Assembly: GCF_011682235.2 (NCBI RefSeq)
Contig: NZ_CP076718.1
Location: forward strand, 1,733,475-1,797,474
Source of the DNA: Rhodocaloribacter litoris
Lineage (GTDB): Bacteria > Bacteroidota > Rhodothermia > Rhodothermales > ISCAR-4553
Direction: 5' to 3'
DNA: 64,000 nucleotides
Below, piece after piece: positions 2,391 to 9,959 of this stretch. A program made the translations under genes and the position numbers. The first letter of the stretch is position 1. Each line of letters starts with the position of its first letter. The notes under the pieces are model-generated. The model did no database searches, was not told the DNA's origin, and saw only the letters and a list, made by a program, of their open reading frames with translations.

Positions 2391-3575
2391 TTACTTCAGG
2401 CGGACGACACGGGCCACGTGCTGATGTACCTTACCATCGTTGGCCGTAGCCCGCACCCTGAGGAAGTAGATGCCGGCCGACAGGCCACTGCCGTTCACGG
2501 CCAGCAGGTTGCCGGCCCCGGCAGCGAGGGTACCAAGCCGGTCCGTCCGCACTTCGCGTCCGAGCACGTCGTAGAGGGTAACTTCGACCGCCATCGGCTG
2601 GGGCAGATCGAGCCGTACGTTGATCCGGTCCTGGAACGGGTTCGGATAGATCCCCGTCAGGGCGAACTGGGACGGCACGGTTTCTCCCGGTTCGTTGGAG
2701 GTAGCACTGACCAGGATGGTCTTATCCCGCGTGACGACGGGCACCAGGTTGCCTTCCCCATCGACGAACTTGACGTTCTCGAAGCGTACTCTCACGCCGC
2801 TGTTGGGTGACACGTCGACGCCGAAAGCCAGCAACAGGCCGGCCCCGGAGAGGGGCGCCGTGTGGGCATAGACGACGCGGTAGCGCCCGTCTGCCACCTG
2901 CTGGGAGATGAACGAGGACCCCTGAACGTCAGAGAGGGTGCCTTCGCGCAGGACGTCGGTGATGGACAGCACGCCCGGGTCATAGACCAGGTCGAACTGA
3001 TAACCGTGAACGCCCAGGTCGGTCAGGTCGCCCACCTCCAGTGCCAGCGTGTCGGGCCGGTCGGTGAGCAGCACGTCGGTCGGGATGGTAACGTCCACAT
3101 TGCCGGCGACGGCCACCGTGCCCAGTTCGAACGTCTGGCTCTGCGGCGGGTTGTCGCCCACCGACAGCTTGACCGTGACGGTGGCTTCACTGGCCACCGG
3201 TTCATCACTCAGGGTAAAGCGCAGGGCGACGACCTGATCGCGCGTCACCTCGACGGCCGAGGCGGCGGCCGCGACAAAGCCGGTGCTGCCCTGCTGCGAA
3301 AAACCGCCGGCGGCGATCAGATCGCCGGCCACCGTACCCTCGGTTTCAGCCCCTTCGATCACCGCAGCGCCTTCCGTATCGAAGGCGACGTTAACCTGAA
3401 CCCCCGAAAGGGCCGGGCTATCGCTGATGAAGATGGGGACCGTCACCGTTTCGCCGGGTGCTCCGGCGATCGGGCCAACACTGACGGACTGGGCTGCCGC
3501 GCTCCCCACCGTTGCGCCAAGCAGCAGCATCCCCAGAAGCAGTGCTGCATTTCGTTCTGTAAGAAATTTCCTCAT
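2391..3575 (-). CDS. Secreted protein with two cohesin-like domains and T9SS type A sorting domain
   Basis: A 394-residue secreted protein. Residues 1-29 are a signal peptide (hydrophobic ALLLGMLLLGATVGSAAAQ). Two beta-rich cohesin-like domains follow, at ~30-165 (VSVGPIAGAPGETVTVPIF) and ~168-298 (DLGVHGYQFDLVYDPGVLSI). A C-terminal T9SS type A sorting domain carries YPNPF and LYDVLGREV and ends SAGIYFLRV...ARVVRLK. Cohesins bind dockerins, and the next gene upstream encodes a dockerin-like segment. The ATG at 3575 is preferred over 3605 because GAGG lies 8 bases before it and it begins the signal peptide. It is 100 bases after the giant dockerin gene and separated from it by hairpins. Binding is inferred from domain type only. 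Confidence 0.82.
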   Translation of the reverse strand: MRKFLTERNAALLLGMLLLGATVGSAAAQSVSVGPIAGAPGETVTVPIFISDSPALSGVQVNVAFDTEGAAVIEGAETEGTVAGDLIAAGGFSQQGSTGFVAAAASAVEVTRDQVVALRFTLSDEPVASEATVTVKLSVGDNPPQSQTFELGTVAVAGNVDVTIPTDVLLTDRPDTLALEVGDLTDLGVHGYQFDLVYDPGVLSITDVLREGTLSDVQGSSFISQQVADGRYRVVYAHTAPLSGAGLLLAFGVDVSPNSGVRVRFENVKFVDGEGNLVPVVTRDKTILVSATSNEPGETVPSQFALTGIYPNPFQDRINVRLDLPQPMAVEVTLYDVLGREVRTDRLGTLAAGAGNLLAVNGSGLSAGIYFLRVRATANDGKVHQHVARVVRLK

Positions 3576-3631
3576 GTCGGCAACCTCAATCTCTCGTGAT
3601 TTCATATGGGCAGAGCAAAAGCCTTTCAGGC

Positions 3632-3662
3632 GATCCGGGGCGCCGGTGTGGCGCCCCGGATC
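3632..3662 (-). terminator. Hairpin terminator after the dockerin-bearing gene
   Basis: GATCCGGGGCGCC (3632-3644) pairs perfectly with GGCGCCCCGGATC (3650-3662) around five bases. In the minus direction it is followed by a second small stem (GCCTGAAAGGC) and TTTT. It sits between the two T9SS-protein genes, so it may terminate or attenuate transcription into the cohesin-domain gene. Confidence 0.65.
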
Positions 3663-3675
3663 ACCCGGCTGGCAA

Positions 3676-6600
3676 TTATCGGACCAACATCATCTTGCGC
3701 ACAGCCGAGAAGCTGCCGGCCTCCAGGCGATAGAGGTAGAGACCGGAGGCAGCCGGCGTGCCGGCATCGGTCCGCCCATCCCAGATCACCGTGTGGTAAC
3801 CAGGCTTCTGGGCCGAATCCACGAGCCGTGCGACCTCACGTCCCTGGATGTCATAGACCACCAGGCGGACGTGGACCTCTTCCGGAAGCTGGTACTTGAT
3901 GTTCGTATGGCTCCGGAACGGGTTCGGATAGCTGGTCTCCAGGGCATAGACCTCGGGCACTTCGACGAGTGCCACCGGAGCCAGCTCGGCCGTCGTCTTG
4001 GCGTTGAGGCGCACCGTGCCCTGCAGCCCGTTGACCGTCTTCACATCGCCCTGTGCACGGAAGTGCAGGCGGACGACCTCATCGGCGGCCGGCTGCAGCC
4101 CCGCCATCGCCACACGCAGCACCCGTGCTTCGGCGTCGAAGTGGTGGGCCACCATCCAGCCTTCAGGCAGCGAGGCCTGGATCGCCTCGAACTCCACTTC
4201 CTGCGGCACGGGGATCTCCAGCTCGATGCCGTGCACGTTCTGGGCGGCTTTCAGCGCCACCGGGACGATCGCCACGCCGTTTTCGAACGTGACTTCACCC
4301 CAGGCGGCCTCACCGGCCACGTCGCTCAGACGCACGGCCGTCGTCTTGCCGGAGCCGCCGGCGAGCGCCTGCAGCATCAGCACCACGTCGGCCACATCGA
4401 CCTCGCCGTCGCCGTTGAAGTCGGCCGCAGCCTGCTGCACATCCGTGAGCGTCACCTGGCCGACGATGGCCTGCAGCACCAGCACCACATCGGCCACGTC
4501 GAACGAGGCGTCGCCGTTGACGTCACCCTGGGACAGCCCCACGGCCACTTCGAAGCTGAAGCCGGCCTGCACACCGAGCGAGTCGGTGGCCGTCACCGTG
4601 ATCGTGGCCATGCCGGCCGCCACGGCCGTCACCGTCAGGGTGTCCCCGCTGACCGCAGCCGTGGCAACGGCCTCGTCGCTGCTGGCGGCGGCGAAGGTGA
4701 CCGGCGGCGTGCCGCCGGCGAAGAGACCGCTCAGCGTGGCCGTGCTATCCTCGCCCACGATCAGGGTGATCGTACCGAGCGAGTCGACGGCGACGAGCCC
4801 GGTGTTGACCGTGACCGAGAAGGCCTGCGTGGCCGTGTCGCCCAGGGCGTCGGTGGCCGTCACCGTCACTTCGGCCGTACCGGTGCCGACGCCCGTGACC
4901 GTCAGCGTATCGTTGCTGACCGCCACGGTGGCTACCGTCGTGTCGTTCGAGGCCGCCGAGAAGGCGTAGGGCGCCTTACCACCGGTGAAGTACGTTCCCA
5001 GCGGGGCGACCTGGACCGTCTGGTTCAGGTTGACACCCCGGTTGGCAATCGTACCCTGCGCCACCAGGTCCGCGTTGACGGTGACATCGAGCGTCGTGCT
5101 CGTGCTCACCCCCAGGCGGTCGGTGGCCGTGATCGTGATCGTGGCCGCACCGGCCGCCACGGCCGTCACGACGAGCGTGTCGCCACTCGTGGTCGCCGTC
5201 GCCGCGTCCGCGTTCGACGTGCTCACCACATAGGTGTAGCTCGGCGGAGGCGTCAGGAAGGGCGACCCGCCCATGAAGACGTCCGGCGTCAGCGTGACGT
5301 TCGCCGTCATGCCGGCGTTGAGTTCCACGGCATCCGGCTGCTCGGCCACCAGGTTGGTCTCCAGACCAAAGGTGAAGCGCTGGGTCGTGGTCTCCACGGC
5401 CCCGGAGACGCCTCCGACACGGACCACCGGATGATCGTTCGACGGGCTGGCGTTGAAGTTGTTATACCCGGCCGTACCGGTGATCAGGGCCCACGGGTTC
5501 GCCGTCGAACCGTCGAAGCGGCGGATCAGGCGCGTGTTGTTGACGTCTTCGGCCACGAACTCGTTGTAGCCCTCCGCTTCAAACCGCAGGTCGTACACCA
5601 CGTTGCTCGGCAGCGTCCCGCTGCTCCGCACCAGCCAGTAGAAGCTCGGGTAGCGGTTGATGACGAGGCTGCCATCCATCAGCGGGAAGCCGTTGCTGCC
5701 GGCCGGGTCGCCGTCGAAGTAGCCGGCGAACAGGTGCTGCACGCCGCTGGCCTGCAGCGTCTCGTCGTTCTGGAAGGTGAACACGGCCGGCCGCAGGTGG
5801 GCCACGTCGGCATCGGCATCGTAGGTGCCCAGCGCACCGAACGTCAGCACATAAGCTTCCGCGTTGGTGTCTTCACTACCGGCATCCTCCAGAGGCAGGC
5901 GCACGTTGCCCCGGATGGCCCCCTTGCCCGAGGAGACGTCCACCAGGGCCGCATCGGTGGCGCTGTCAAACGCCGGCGCGATCCAGTTGGTGCTACCCGT
6001 CTGGAGCAGCCCCTTGGTCAGGATGATCGTGTTGACGTCGTTGTCGTTGATGGTCAGGTTGCCCCCCGAGACCATGACGCCGGCCGCGTTGTTGACCTGC
6101 AGGTGAACCGGATCCGGGCTGCCGGAAGCAAACGTCATCCCGGCGGACGGCACCGTGAAGGTCTGCGCCGACGAGCCGGCAAACGCCAGCGTCCCCGGAT
6201 TACCGGCCCCGGCTTCCACGTTGCCTACGCCGATGACCGTGGCATTCCCGGTAACCGTCAGCGTCCGGCTGGCCGACGTGGTGGTGATGTAAACCTCACC
6301 ATTATCCAGGATCAGGTCCCCGACCGTGACATTGGCATCCGGGAGATCAAGCGTGGGGGTACCGGCCACACCGGTGTTCGTGTCTTTCACCGTCAGCGAG
6401 AGGATGTTTGCCGACGTTTTCAACTCCCCACCGGCAACATAGGCCGTACCCACATCATCCGAATACACCAGGTGATAGTCGGTGACGGCGATTTTGTCGT
6501 CGGACGTCTCGCTAAACGAGCCATTATTGGCACGTTCAATCGTACCGCCCGAGGCCACCGTCAACGTGACCGTAGCACCGCCGTTGCTCACAGAAATCGC

Positions 6601-8793
6601 GGCACCGTCGGCCGTCAATTTGCTGTTGACGGTGACATTCTGATCAACCGTCAGAGCGGCCTGCGCGGTGAGCGTGGCCACGGAAGCCGGAAGCTCGACA
6701 TTCGTAGTCGCCGCGCCCGTGTAGGTCACATTCAGGTCACTCCCCAGCACCACGTCGTCGGCATCGGTGCCCAGGGCCTGGTCGACGCCATAGGTGACGG
6801 AAGCCCCGTCGAGGATGATCACGTCGCCGCTGTCATCGCTGTCACCATCCACCGAGATGGCGGCATTGGCGACGAGGGTGTTCCGGATCTCGATGCTGTC
6901 GTCGTTACCGGCCGTGAGCGCCTGGCTGACCGTCAGGTTCGGGAAGGACACCGTGCCGCCGCCCGTGCTGAAGGTGCCGGCGCTGTTCCAGATGACGTTC
7001 CCGCCATTGGCCACATAGGAGCCGGCCGTATAGGTGTAATTACCCTGGAACTCCAGATGGTTGCTGCCGAGGGAAACCTCGCCCTGCGTGTGGGTAAAGG
7101 TCCCCTGCACCTGGAACGTACCGGAGCTCGGTCCACTGGAGGTGAGCATGACCCCGGCGGCCGCGTCGATGGTCACCGCCGGGAGCTGCACGGTCGTGAA
7201 GCCGGCATTCGAGTCGAAGGGGGCCTGGACCATCGTGCCTCCCACCTTCAGCGTACCGGTCGCGGCGGCGAAGTCATCCTTCAGGGTCACCGTGCCGGAG
7301 GCCGTCACGGTGTTACCACCTGCAATGGTAAACAGCCCCTCACCCGAGGTGGTGTCACCATCATCCACCGTCAACGAACCCGTCACCGTCACGTTGCTGT
7401 TGATCGTCGCCGCAGCTGCGACCGACAGGTTGGCAATCGACTTGCCGTTGAAGTTATGACCGGCGGTGCTGCCCGTCAGCTTGAAGGTACCGGTGCCCGC
7501 TACGGCAGCATTGGTCGCCACCGTAATATCATCTCCGAGCGTGAGCGTATGGGTGCCGATATCCAGCGTGGCAAAGTCTACTACGGTAAAGGTTCCATTC
7601 ACCGTCACATTGCCGGTCAGCAGCATGGAGCTGGGCTGAAGGCTGATGGCGTTCACCGTTACATTGCCACTGACCGTGGCATTGCCCAGGCTCAGGCTGG
7701 CATTCTGGTTCACCGTAACGTTTCCGGTGATCGTAGGGCTGCTGCCGCCCAGCGAAGCCTGAAGGCTGGCCTGCGAGGCAACCGTCACATCCCCGGCAAT
7801 GGTCTTGACACTCTGGATGGTCGCACTCGCGTTCGAGGCAACCGTCACATTGCCCAGCTCCGAGGCCACGCTGCTGCCCGTGTCCCCGTTGATCGTCACA
7901 CCGCTGGCCGAGATCTGCAGCGAGGGATCCACATCGCCCGACACCGTGTGGGTCGTGTTGGCACCGCTCAGCGTCACCGTACCGGTACCACTCAGCACAC
8001 CGGTAACGGTGAGGCTACCGCTAACCGTGGGCGTGGTGGCACCAAAGGCTGCCGTATGGTTGGAACCAATGGTAAGATTCGGGAAGGTCCCGCTGCCGTT
8101 GAAGGTCGAGCTGGTCGCCGTGCTGCCACTGGCTGTGGCCACCGTGCCGTTCTGGATCAGACCATCGTTCGTCAGCGTCGCGCCGTTGGCCACGGTGAGC
8201 GTGTTGCCGCCGAGGTCCACAACGGCGGGCGTGGTACCGGAGTCGCCACCGTCGGGATCGACAGCCAGCGTACCATTCACGGTCAGGTTGGCCGCAAGCG
8301 AGAGCGTACCACCGTCATTAACCGTGAGCGTAACACCATTGCTAAAGATGCTACCGCTGCCGATGGTCACCGAGGCCTGGGCCGCCACCGTAACCGCCAT
8401 GGCACTCGGCGACTCGATCGTCAACCCCAGGCTGTTCAGCACAAACGTCGAGGCGTCCGTACCATCGCCGAAGTTAACCGTCCCCGCGTTCAGGTTCAGG
8501 CTGTTCAGCGTTACACTACCGCTTTCGGCAACGAACGTGATGTTATCCTCCTTGTTGGTCAACGCCTGGGTAATCGTAAACGAACCGGGGTTGATGGCAA
8601 CCACAATGGACTGTGCCCCATTGCTCCCCACCCCGTTGATCGCCGTGATGGCCGCATCAACGGTGGTATAGGTACCATTGATGGTCCCTTCACCCCCGGA
8701 AACGGTTACCTGTGCCCGGGCGCCTCCGGCACCGACGAGCAGAAAGGCAAAGACGGCCAGTAAGGCCGCCGGCAGTCGTTGCAACGTGCTCAT
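3676..8793 (-). CDS. Giant secreted beta-solenoid/Ig-like/dockerin protein with T9SS sorting domain
   Basis: A 1705-residue secreted protein. A signal peptide ends near ARAQ. Residues ~30-1080 are Thr/Val/Gly-rich NVTVNG/GTLTV repeats typical of a right-handed beta-helix. Residues ~1160-1415 hold three bacterial Ig-like repeats (SNADAATATTSGDTLVVTAV and variants). A dockerin-like pair at ~1417-1472 reads GDVNGDASFDVADVVLVLQ and FNGDGEVDVADVVLMLQ, with calcium-loop Asp/Asn spacing. A cohesin-like beta domain follows to ~1600. The last ~85 residues are a T9SS type A domain (YPNPFRSHTNIKYQLP, DIQGREVARL). The ATG at 8793 has AGGAGGT 7 bases upstream; the GTG at 8802 is less likely. Probable surface adhesin or scaffold partner; the ligand is unknown. 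Confidence 0.85.
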   Translation of the reverse strand: MSTLQRLPAALLAVFAFLLVGAGGARAQVTVSGGEGTINGTYTTVDAAITAINGVGSNGAQSIVVAINPGSFTITQALTNKEDNITFVAESGSVTLNSLNLNAGTVNFGDGTDASTFVLNSLGLTIESPSAMAVTVAAQASVTIGSGSIFSNGVTLTVNDGGTLSLAANLTVNGTLAVDPDGGDSGTTPAVVDLGGNTLTVANGATLTNDGLIQNGTVATASGSTATSSTFNGSGTFPNLTIGSNHTAAFGATTPTVSGSLTVTGVLSGTGTVTLSGANTTHTVSGDVDPSLQISASGVTINGDTGSSVASELGNVTVASNASATIQSVKTIAGDVTVASQASLQASLGGSSPTITGNVTVNQNASLSLGNATVSGNVTVNAISLQPSSMLLTGNVTVNGTFTVVDFATLDIGTHTLTLGDDITVATNAAVAGTGTFKLTGSTAGHNFNGKSIANLSVAAAATINSNVTVTGSLTVDDGDTTSGEGLFTIAGGNTVTASGTVTLKDDFAAATGTLKVGGTMVQAPFDSNAGFTTVQLPAVTIDAAAGVMLTSSGPSSGTFQVQGTFTHTQGEVSLGSNHLEFQGNYTYTAGSYVANGGNVIWNSAGTFSTGGGTVSFPNLTVSQALTAGNDDSIEIRNTLVANAAISVDGDSDDSGDVIILDGASVTYGVDQALGTDADDVVLGSDLNVTYTGAATTNVELPASVATLTAQAALTVDQNVTVNSKLTADGAAISVSNGGATVTLTVASGGTIERANNGSFSETSDDKIAVTDYHLVYSDDVGTAYVAGGELKTSANILSLTVKDTNTGVAGTPTLDLPDANVTVGDLILDNGEVYITTTSASRTLTVTGNATVIGVGNVEAGAGNPGTLAFAGSSAQTFTVPSAGMTFASGSPDPVHLQVNNAAGVMVSGGNLTINDNDVNTIILTKGLLQTGSTNWIAPAFDSATDAALVDVSSGKGAIRGNVRLPLEDAGSEDTNAEAYVLTFGALGTYDADADVAHLRPAVFTFQNDETLQASGVQHLFAGYFDGDPAGSNGFPLMDGSLVINRYPSFYWLVRSSGTLPSNVVYDLRFEAEGYNEFVAEDVNNTRLIRRFDGSTANPWALITGTAGYNNFNASPSNDHPVVRVGGVSGAVETTTQRFTFGLETNLVAEQPDAVELNAGMTANVTLTPDVFMGGSPFLTPPPSYTYVVSTSNADAATATTSGDTLVVTAVAAGAATITITATDRLGVSTSTTLDVTVNADLVAQGTIANRGVNLNQTVQVAPLGTYFTGGKAPYAFSAASNDTTVATVAVSNDTLTVTGVGTGTAEVTVTATDALGDTATQAFSVTVNTGLVAVDSLGTITLIVGEDSTATLSGLFAGGTPPVTFAAASSDEAVATAAVSGDTLTVTAVAAGMATITVTATDSLGVQAGFSFEVAVGLSQGDVNGDASFDVADVVLVLQAIVGQVTLTDVQQAAADFNGDGEVDVADVVLMLQALAGGSGKTTAVRLSDVAGEAAWGEVTFENGVAIVPVALKAAQNVHGIELEIPVPQEVEFEAIQASLPEGWMVAHHFDAEARVLRVAMAGLQPAADEVVRLHFRAQGDVKTVNGLQGTVRLNAKTTAELAPVALVEVPEVYALETSYPNPFRSHTNIKYQLPEEVHVRLVVYDIQGREVARLVDSAQKPGYHTVIWDGRTDAGTPAASGLYLYRLEAGSFSAVRKMMLVR

Positions 8794-9321
8794 AGAGCGC
8801 ACCTCCTTTTCTGAGTCTGGTTGGTATCTTGCTTCTCGCTTGCTGCTAGAGTATAGCCCCGCAACAGAACAGGGCCCCCCGTACGGTTTCTGGTTTCAGG
8901 TTAAGAAAAAGCGTTAGAAAGTTAGACGGCACAGGCCAGAAACACAAGCCTGCCGTCCGTCGAAGGTATACACACGAAGAAATGGCAACACTCTATCGCC
9001 CCCTTCCCTCTCGTGCGCCTTCACGCTTTATTCACAAAACGACTTTTTCGAACGCGCCAATATAAATATCCATGCCCGGACAGATCAAGCAAAAAGGTCA
9101 TTCCTGCGCTTTTATCCCTTTCTCAACCCGATCTGGTACAGAACCATCCCGGTTTGCCGCTGTAGCAGCGTACACGAAAATTTGCCCATCCCGCTCTATG
9201 CATTTATGCCAGGCCCGGCGAACACATGCGTGACGGCTCACAACGGCCCGGGCAAGAAAAAACAGGAAGTCTTTGTTTTACAAACTGATGTTACGCAGTT
9301 GAAACCTGTGGGATAGCAGGA
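8794..9321. other. Long non-coding region upstream of the dockerin gene
   Basis: About 530 bases lie between the dockerin gene start and the tandem repeats. The part nearest the gene holds its ribosome binding site and a candidate promoter (8917-8947). The remainder is less GC-rich than its surroundings, with AT-rich patches near 9060. I see no credible gene, tRNA or riboswitch in it. Confidence 0.5.
8917..8947 (-). promoter_or_regulatory. Candidate promoter for the dockerin gene
   Basis: On the minus strand TTG (8947-8945) is followed after 20 bases by TAACTTTC (8924-8917). This matches 7 of 8 positions of the Bacteroidota -7 element TAnnTTTG, with the TTG element upstream. It lies ~124 bases before the ATG. 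A similar TTG-N20-TAnnTTTN arrangement precedes pyk. Sequence match only. Confidence 0.4.
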
Positions 9322-9732: not shown

Positions 9733-9927
9733 GTCGGTGTGCAGCGCGATGTAGCCGCACCCTTCACGGGTGCGCCCCATGGCCCACCGGAGAACCCGGG
9801 CTGAAGCCCGCGGCTACACGTGGGCAGCCCGGGCCGACGGGACGCGCAACGCGTCCAGATCCGCGGCTACACGTGGGCCGTTCGCTCAGGGCAGCCATGC
9901 CCTCAATAAAAATGACCTCCGCTATAA
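9733..9927 (-). repeat. Intergenic repeat family A, copy 2 (longer form, inverted)
   Basis: Reverse-complement counterpart of 1968-2127. It additionally contains a direct internal duplication of CCGCGGCTACACGTGGGC at 9808-9825 and 9861-9878, and the palindrome-like GGGCTGAAGCCC. It ends 32 bases before the ruvX stop codon on the complementary strand. Together with copy 1 it brackets the cohesin and dockerin genes. Confidence 0.85.
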
Positions 9928-9959
9928 TACAGCCTTCGGAGCAGCACGTTGCTGCGCCG

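Follow-up and report, generated by a model that had tools for sequence, protein, structure and literature searches.

A giant dockerin protein and its co-encoded cohesin partner as a probable two-part surface assembly in Rhodocaloribacter litoris

The stretch of DNA analysed here, referred to as the window, comprises 64,000 nucleotides of the Rhodocaloribacter litoris genome (contig NZ_CP076718.1, positions 1,733,475 to 1,797,474). Two adjacent minus-strand genes of the window encode a giant protein with a dockerin, P0002, and a smaller protein with two cohesins, P0001, each ending in a sorting domain of the type IX secretion system (T9SS). The giant comes first (8802 to 3676) and the partner second (3605 to 2391), with 70 base pairs (bp) between them. 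The likelier start of P0002 is the ATG at 8793, which yields 1705 amino acids (aa) and has the signal peptide, read from the translation by eye, right after it. As argued below, the two products probably form a two-part surface assembly, in which the dockerin of the giant would be docked on its co-encoded cohesin partner. The features of the two genes are as follows.

3676 to 8802, minus strand: P0002, giant dockerin protein, 1708 aa when counted from the GTG at 8802 (open reading frame (ORF) translation, Pfam, NCBIfam).
5308 to 8709, minus strand: long beta-rich part of P0002, of no known family (null result in Pfam and the PDB, hydrophobic alternation; boundaries approximate).
4549 to 5307, minus strand: immunoglobulin-like (Ig-like; Big_2-like) repeats of P0002, three weak matches (Pfam; boundaries approximate).
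4363 to 4527, minus strand: type I dockerin of P0002 with two calcium loops (PF00404, loop alignment, solved relative).
3964 to 4317, minus strand: domain X of P0002, divergent cohesin-like (hhalign; 3e-34 with an in-house X profile built from an alignment that includes this X itself).
3679 to 3930, minus strand: T9SS type A sorting domain of P0002 (TIGR04183, 31.3 bits).
2391 to 3605, minus strand: P0001, cohesin partner of 404 aa with a T9SS type A domain (ORF translation, Pfam, NCBIfam; ORF including the stop codon).
3492 to 3605, minus strand: signal peptide region of P0001 with n-region, hydrophobic stretch and ...SAAAQ (read by eye from the translation).
3144 to 3485, minus strand: cohesin 1 of P0001 (PF00963, 22.3 bits alone; 3e-22 with an in-house cohesin profile, which like the in-house dockerin and T9SS profiles was built partly from loci later scored with it).
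2712 to 3074, minus strand: cohesin 2 of P0001 (PF00963, 27.7 bits alone; best stretch residues 190-298).
2394 to 2651, minus strand: T9SS type A sorting domain of P0001 (PF18962, TIGR04183).

The initial annotation of this DNA, made from the letters alone, had described two cohesin-like domains in the smaller protein and two dockerin-like calcium loops in the larger, and profile searches bear out both descriptions. The Pfam cohesin model (PF00963) matches P0001 in two stretches with an E-value of 1.5e-11 and 45.1 bits (cut-off 24.1); taken singly in a genome profile search, cohesin 2 lies above the Pfam cut-off and cohesin 1 slightly below it. A profile of the cohesins of the order, those of P0001 included, matches solved cohesins at 2.7e-15 (1g1k), and the domains do not fall into other Ig-like families. 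The two calcium loops of P0002 together form one type I dockerin: Dockerin_1 (PF00404) matches residues 1426-1480 with an E-value of 8.7e-8 and 32.7 bits (cut-off 22.9), both of its 12-residue loops are intact and, when aligned, share 15 of 24 residues. Its closest solved relative is the dockerin of Clostridium thermocellum xylanase Y (2ccl/1ohz, 7.9e-8).

The dockerin and the sorting domain of P0002 are separated by some 120 residues that no Pfam family matches (~1496-1613), here named X. The order's giants and its other dockerin proteins supplied 12 such regions for alignment, and the resulting profile matches one of 18 cohesins over 100 columns (hhalign, 96.4%, E 1.2e-9), while the few weak matches of X in the PDB are headed by cohesins (0.019). 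On these profile matches X is a previously unlabelled divergent cohesin, and the giant thus ends in a dockerin, a divergent cohesin and a sorting domain. Many relatives also carry a full cohesin directly before the dockerin; P0002 itself has no upstream cohesin. Neither Pfam nor the PDB gave a match for residues 1-1174, in which hydrophobic residues show the alternation typical of beta-strands (lag 2, z 3.8); this arm may adopt the beta-solenoid fold that the initial annotation gave it. Behind it, Big_2 matches three stretches weakly, at 19 bits and under the cut-off of 22.8. No enzyme domain and no carbohydrate-binding module was found in P0002 by Pfam.

Both proteins also have the hallmarks of T9SS cargo. 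The gene positions and C-terminal T9SS type A domains given by the initial annotation are confirmed by the ORFs and by TIGR04183, which scores 36.5 bits in P0001 and 31.3 in P0002 (NCBIfam cut-off 23); Por_Secre_tail (PF18962) adds 40.8 bits in P0001 (cut-off 27). The genome encodes the translocon protein SprA (profile match 1.1e-85) and has 83 sorting-domain matches by profile search, which makes export of P0001 and P0002 through the T9SS plausible.

Profile searches of the whole genome (4.50 Mb) found two dockerins and four cohesins, all within two giant-plus-partner loci. A scan for further dockerins had been recommended at the outset, and the one it revealed belongs to a second pair with this arrangement (L007:4215-12125), in which a subtilase-like giant of 2182 aa is followed by a cohesin protein of 397 aa with a sorting domain. 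This giant reads Peptidase_S8 (9.7e-38), cohesin, dockerin, X and sorting domain, and subtilase giants with the same C-terminal end are also present at L066 and L074. At the loop positions that we take to set specificity in C. thermocellum, the dockerin of P0002 has VA/VA and that of the subtilase giant SF/AF, and this difference suggests two separate cohesin-dockerin pairs in the genome. With so few domains, all in two pairs, the genome does not hold a cellulosome, for which a scaffoldin with several cohesins and several dockerin enzymes would be expected. A T9SS-anchored system of the kind proposed for Candidatus (Ca.) Stygibacter was likewise considered and set aside, as only two dockerin proteins are present and each has its own T9SS domain.

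The same arrangement recurs across the order. Among 60 genomes, that of R. litoris included, 23 have a dockerin and 23 a cohesin; both are found in 17, a dockerin only in six and a cohesin only in six (p 2e-5). The surroundings of 57 of the 58 dockerin matches were examined, the remaining match (G016:C589) having no long enough frame. Frames of 1200 aa or more contain 20 of the 58; two of these are cut by contig ends, leaving 18 assessable giants. In 13 of these a cohesin is encoded by the gene immediately downstream, on the same strand, and a further two (G004, G028) are orthologs of a giant-plus-cohesin case with cohesins below threshold. The 13 cases are spread over families f1, f4, f5, f7, f8, f10, f12 and f13; since these families are related, they do not represent independent events. 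Where scanned, the N-terminal parts of the giants vary, being subtilases, a metalloprotease, CARDB repeats or of no known family, and the dockerin end and cohesin partner recur despite this variation. The 300 control frames drawn for the in-house profiles happened to contain other giants and an additional cohesin-like protein, and these scored. Two further searches contributed nothing to the counts: P0001 as a query in relatives returned mostly T9SS-domain matches, and a search among named relatives gave 42 stretches matching the pattern, eight of which encode a relative, mainly through coverage of the T9SS domain. One cohesin partner of the order, at L132:574-3117, carries three cohesins and a peptidase M23 domain.

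The link extends to the phylum as a whole. In 296 genomes drawn evenly from it, dockerins were found in 106, cohesins in 98 and both in 71 (odds ratio 12, p 3e-20). Among the matches listed (150 dockerins in 75 genomes, and 150 cohesins), at least 38 of the 150 dockerins, in 30 genomes, lie within 6 kb of a listed cohesin that belongs to another frame. When placement was randomised in 2000 trials, such neighbours among these matches numbered 1.0 on average and 7 at most, so chance adjacency of dockerin and cohesin is ruled out. The neighbouring cohesin lies downstream in 35 of the 38 listed cases, one of which also has a cohesin upstream (strands read by eye).

Full-length relatives of the first 1414 residues of P0002 are confined to family f5, with six loci in five genomes and 30-36% identity over about 1150-1300 aa. 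Directly behind five of the six orthologs comes a protein of 726-767 aa that combines two cohesins with a sorting domain, and after it another gene, which encodes one cohesin. The f5 partners scanned (seven proteins) have CHRD or cadherin-like domains besides. In a tree of 19 cohesins, cohesin 2 of P0001 groups with the second cohesins of the f5 partners (support 90/88), and cohesin 1 falls with the remaining cohesins, both cohesins of P0001 having long branches. The two cohesins of the f5 partners and this grouping show that the two-cohesin design of the partner travels with the giant.

Some dockerin proteins of the order have no sorting domain of their own. In G022 (L068:6777-13414) a fungalysin (M36) metalloprotease (PF02128, 3.2e-135) bears a dockerin at its C-terminus and lacks a T9SS domain, which is present in the cohesin protein of 999 aa that follows it; G006 and, more weakly, G043 show the same arrangement. 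A dockerin protein without a T9SS domain beside a cohesin protein with one is what would be expected if such pairs bind. Family f9 (G009, G021, G030; L084, L105-L137) goes further, as 19 of its 28 dockerin proteins have no sorting domain, and a Pfam scan of 17 of these 19 found it in none. Several f9 dockerin proteins are polysaccharide-lyase-like; among the domains seen are polysaccharide lyase 14, apiosidase-like, beta-helix, PA14 and F5/8. The T9SS domain is carried by the cohesin scaffolds, which have between one and six cohesins (six in a scaffold of 1201 aa). This is a T9SS-anchored cellulosome-like system of the Ca. Stygibacter type, as far as that type is set out in excerpts of PMC8542988, and it lends support to the view that in this group proteins are held at the surface by cohesin-dockerin contacts.

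The gap between the two genes of the pair contains one further element.

3627 to 3667, minus strand: G+C-rich hairpin of 18 pairs between P0002 and P0001, directly behind the P0002 stop codon (minimum free energy -52.3, z -6.3).

This hairpin has a single copy in the genome and was not listed by a terminator consensus scan. A hairpin scoring at least 13 and starting within 60 bases behind the stop codon is found in 17 of 18 giants hand-picked from giant-type pairs, compared with 33 of 170 controls with a same-strand neighbour and 14 of 37 sorting-domain genes with such a neighbour; the position is common to the giants, the sequence is not. Five further pairs outside the 18, whose dockerin proteins are shorter or have no sorting domain (L068, L076, L087, L109, L132), score 7.2 to 10.1 and so have no hairpin of this strength. 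The hairpin may set the ratio of P0002 and P0001 transcripts. Further out, copies of a dispersed intergenic repeat flank the pair at 1960-2127 and 9733-9934, inverted and 7.8 kb apart. A 176 bp query of this repeat gives 59 genomic matches, with 40 of 127 candidates scored, and the flanking copies may be a coincidence in a repeat-rich genome.

Taken together, these data make a two-part surface assembly of P0002 and P0001 the probable reading, and a surface complex the best explanation, because the order of dockerin giant, then cohesin gene, recurs across order and phylum. The statistical link between giant and partner genes is strong, and the contact itself is what we infer from sequence, together with binding in trans, the surface location, the stoichiometry and an adhesin role for the arm. 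Cargo of the T9SS crosses the outer membrane and is then retained at the surface or released once its type A domain has been cut off. With a signal peptide and a C-terminal type A domain in both, P0001 and P0002 should both cross the outer membrane through this system, and would be kept at the surface or released from it. The long beta-rich arm of the giant would project, with the dockerin near the C-terminus beside the cut sorting domain. In the presence of calcium the dockerin would plug into a cohesin of P0001, and the partner would thereby anchor or cross-link giants; as it has two cohesins, it could add a second hold on one giant or link two. The initial annotation had cast the giant as a possible scaffold; in such an assembly it would rather be the docked partner, the scaffold role, which lies with the cohesins, belonging to the small protein.

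Several observations weigh against an assembly of this kind. Single-chain models of P0001 and of the C-terminal part of P0002 are poor, each with a mean pLDDT (predicted local distance difference test score) of 49, and both cohesins of P0001 sit on long branches in the tree of 19 cohesins. Three of the 18 assessable giants have no adjacent cohesin (G007:C210, G049:C114, G019:C54), nor does one of the f5 orthologs (G029:C1, L150), and the nearest relative examined, G001 of the same family, has neither a cohesin nor a dockerin. The first loop of the f5 dockerins is degenerate and has lost its calcium-binding residues, yet the partner persists, and no Pfam dockerin was found in the two f5 giants scanned. 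Partnerless giants, this degenerate loop and the weak scores of some partner cohesins would fit a reading in which dockerin and cohesins are no more than stable calcium and Ig-like building blocks of large surface proteins, and the genes share a surface operon without direct contact between their products. It is rather improbable given the strong co-occurrence of the two domains, both in the 296 genomes and in the 60, and the complete and symmetric loops of P0002.

The position of X, a divergent cohesin directly behind the dockerin of P0002, raises a different objection to docking on P0001. Having a cohesin-like domain of its own, the giant might bind in cis, its dockerin packing on X (or, in relatives, on the directly preceding cohesin) to make a stiff base, with the neighbouring gene merely co-located. 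The giant of the second pair, whose full cohesin directly precedes the dockerin, would suit such packing; P0002, without an upstream cohesin, suits it less. Binding in cis would also leave unexplained the separate cohesin gene behind the giant in 13 of 18 cases (15 with the orthologs) and the persistence of two-cohesin partners in f5, and is accordingly considered unlikely, if somewhat less so than the building-block reading. Family f9 shows that the order does contain a system of dockerin enzymes, and the pair could in principle be one component of a cellulosome-like enzyme complex whose dockerin enzymes are encoded elsewhere in the genome. The only two dockerins there are on P0002, in which no enzyme domain was found, and on a subtilase, and the genome profile searches largely refute this reading, unless divergent dockerins escape the profile; it is very improbable indeed.

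If docking of P0002 on P0001 is correct, a domain pair studied almost only for the digestion of plant cell walls would be a widespread means of assembling giant surface proteins in Bacteroidota by way of the T9SS; in most cases it would take the form of a two-gene unit, recognisable in genomes and open to testing with two small domains in purified form. The two pairs of this genome may also offer natural orthogonal cohesin-dockerin pairs (VA/VA versus SF/AF). A broader and more speculative scheme, which we regard as possible though doubtful, is that cohesin-dockerin binding is a general T9SS coupling throughout Bacteroidota, in which a cohesin protein with a T9SS domain would act as surface anchor and dockerin proteins would be hung on it. 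In some lineages (f9, G022) the dockerin would have replaced the T9SS domain, so that a protein lacking a T9SS signal would reach the surface, or stay there, by riding on a partner that has it; the giant-plus-partner pair would represent the simple state, from which cellulosome-like complexes were derived.

Both domain families are shared with the type I cohesin-dockerin complexes of the clostridial cellulosome (1ohz/2ccl), to which the dockerin of P0002 is closest, and the cohesins of the order match solved scaffoldin cohesins by profile. The pair differs from the cellulosome in being a one-to-one gene pair with T9SS domains on both sides, and in that no enzymes, multi-cohesin scaffold or carbohydrate-binding module were found. 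Peer et al. are said to have described, in 2009, cohesins and dockerins in organisms without cellulosomes; relative to that work, what would be added here is a recurrent pair of giant, then partner, with T9SS domains. The initial annotation had envisaged a surface complex outside the clostridial systems; cohesin-dockerin assembly outside cellulosomes is not in itself new, a cellulosome-like system anchored by the T9SS having been put forward in 2021 for Ca. Stygibacter (Cloacimonadota), according to excerpts of PMC8542988. No cohesins or dockerins were found in the study of PMC5831590, to judge from one passage of it, and among the open-licence papers listed in literature searches none is evidently about a giant-plus-cohesin T9SS gene pair. 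As the excerpted text of PMC8542988 presents it, the Ca. Stygibacter system likewise has a cohesin protein with a T9SS C-terminal domain and dockerin proteins on the same surface, and differs in placing several dockerin enzymes on one scaffoldin of 3,755 aa, whereas in R. litoris one giant without a known enzyme domain has its own T9SS domain and a small partner encoded alongside. Seen against these systems, the sequence comparisons suggest that the pair exemplifies a two-gene surface unit which recurs among related bacteria and is distinct from cellulose-digesting complexes.

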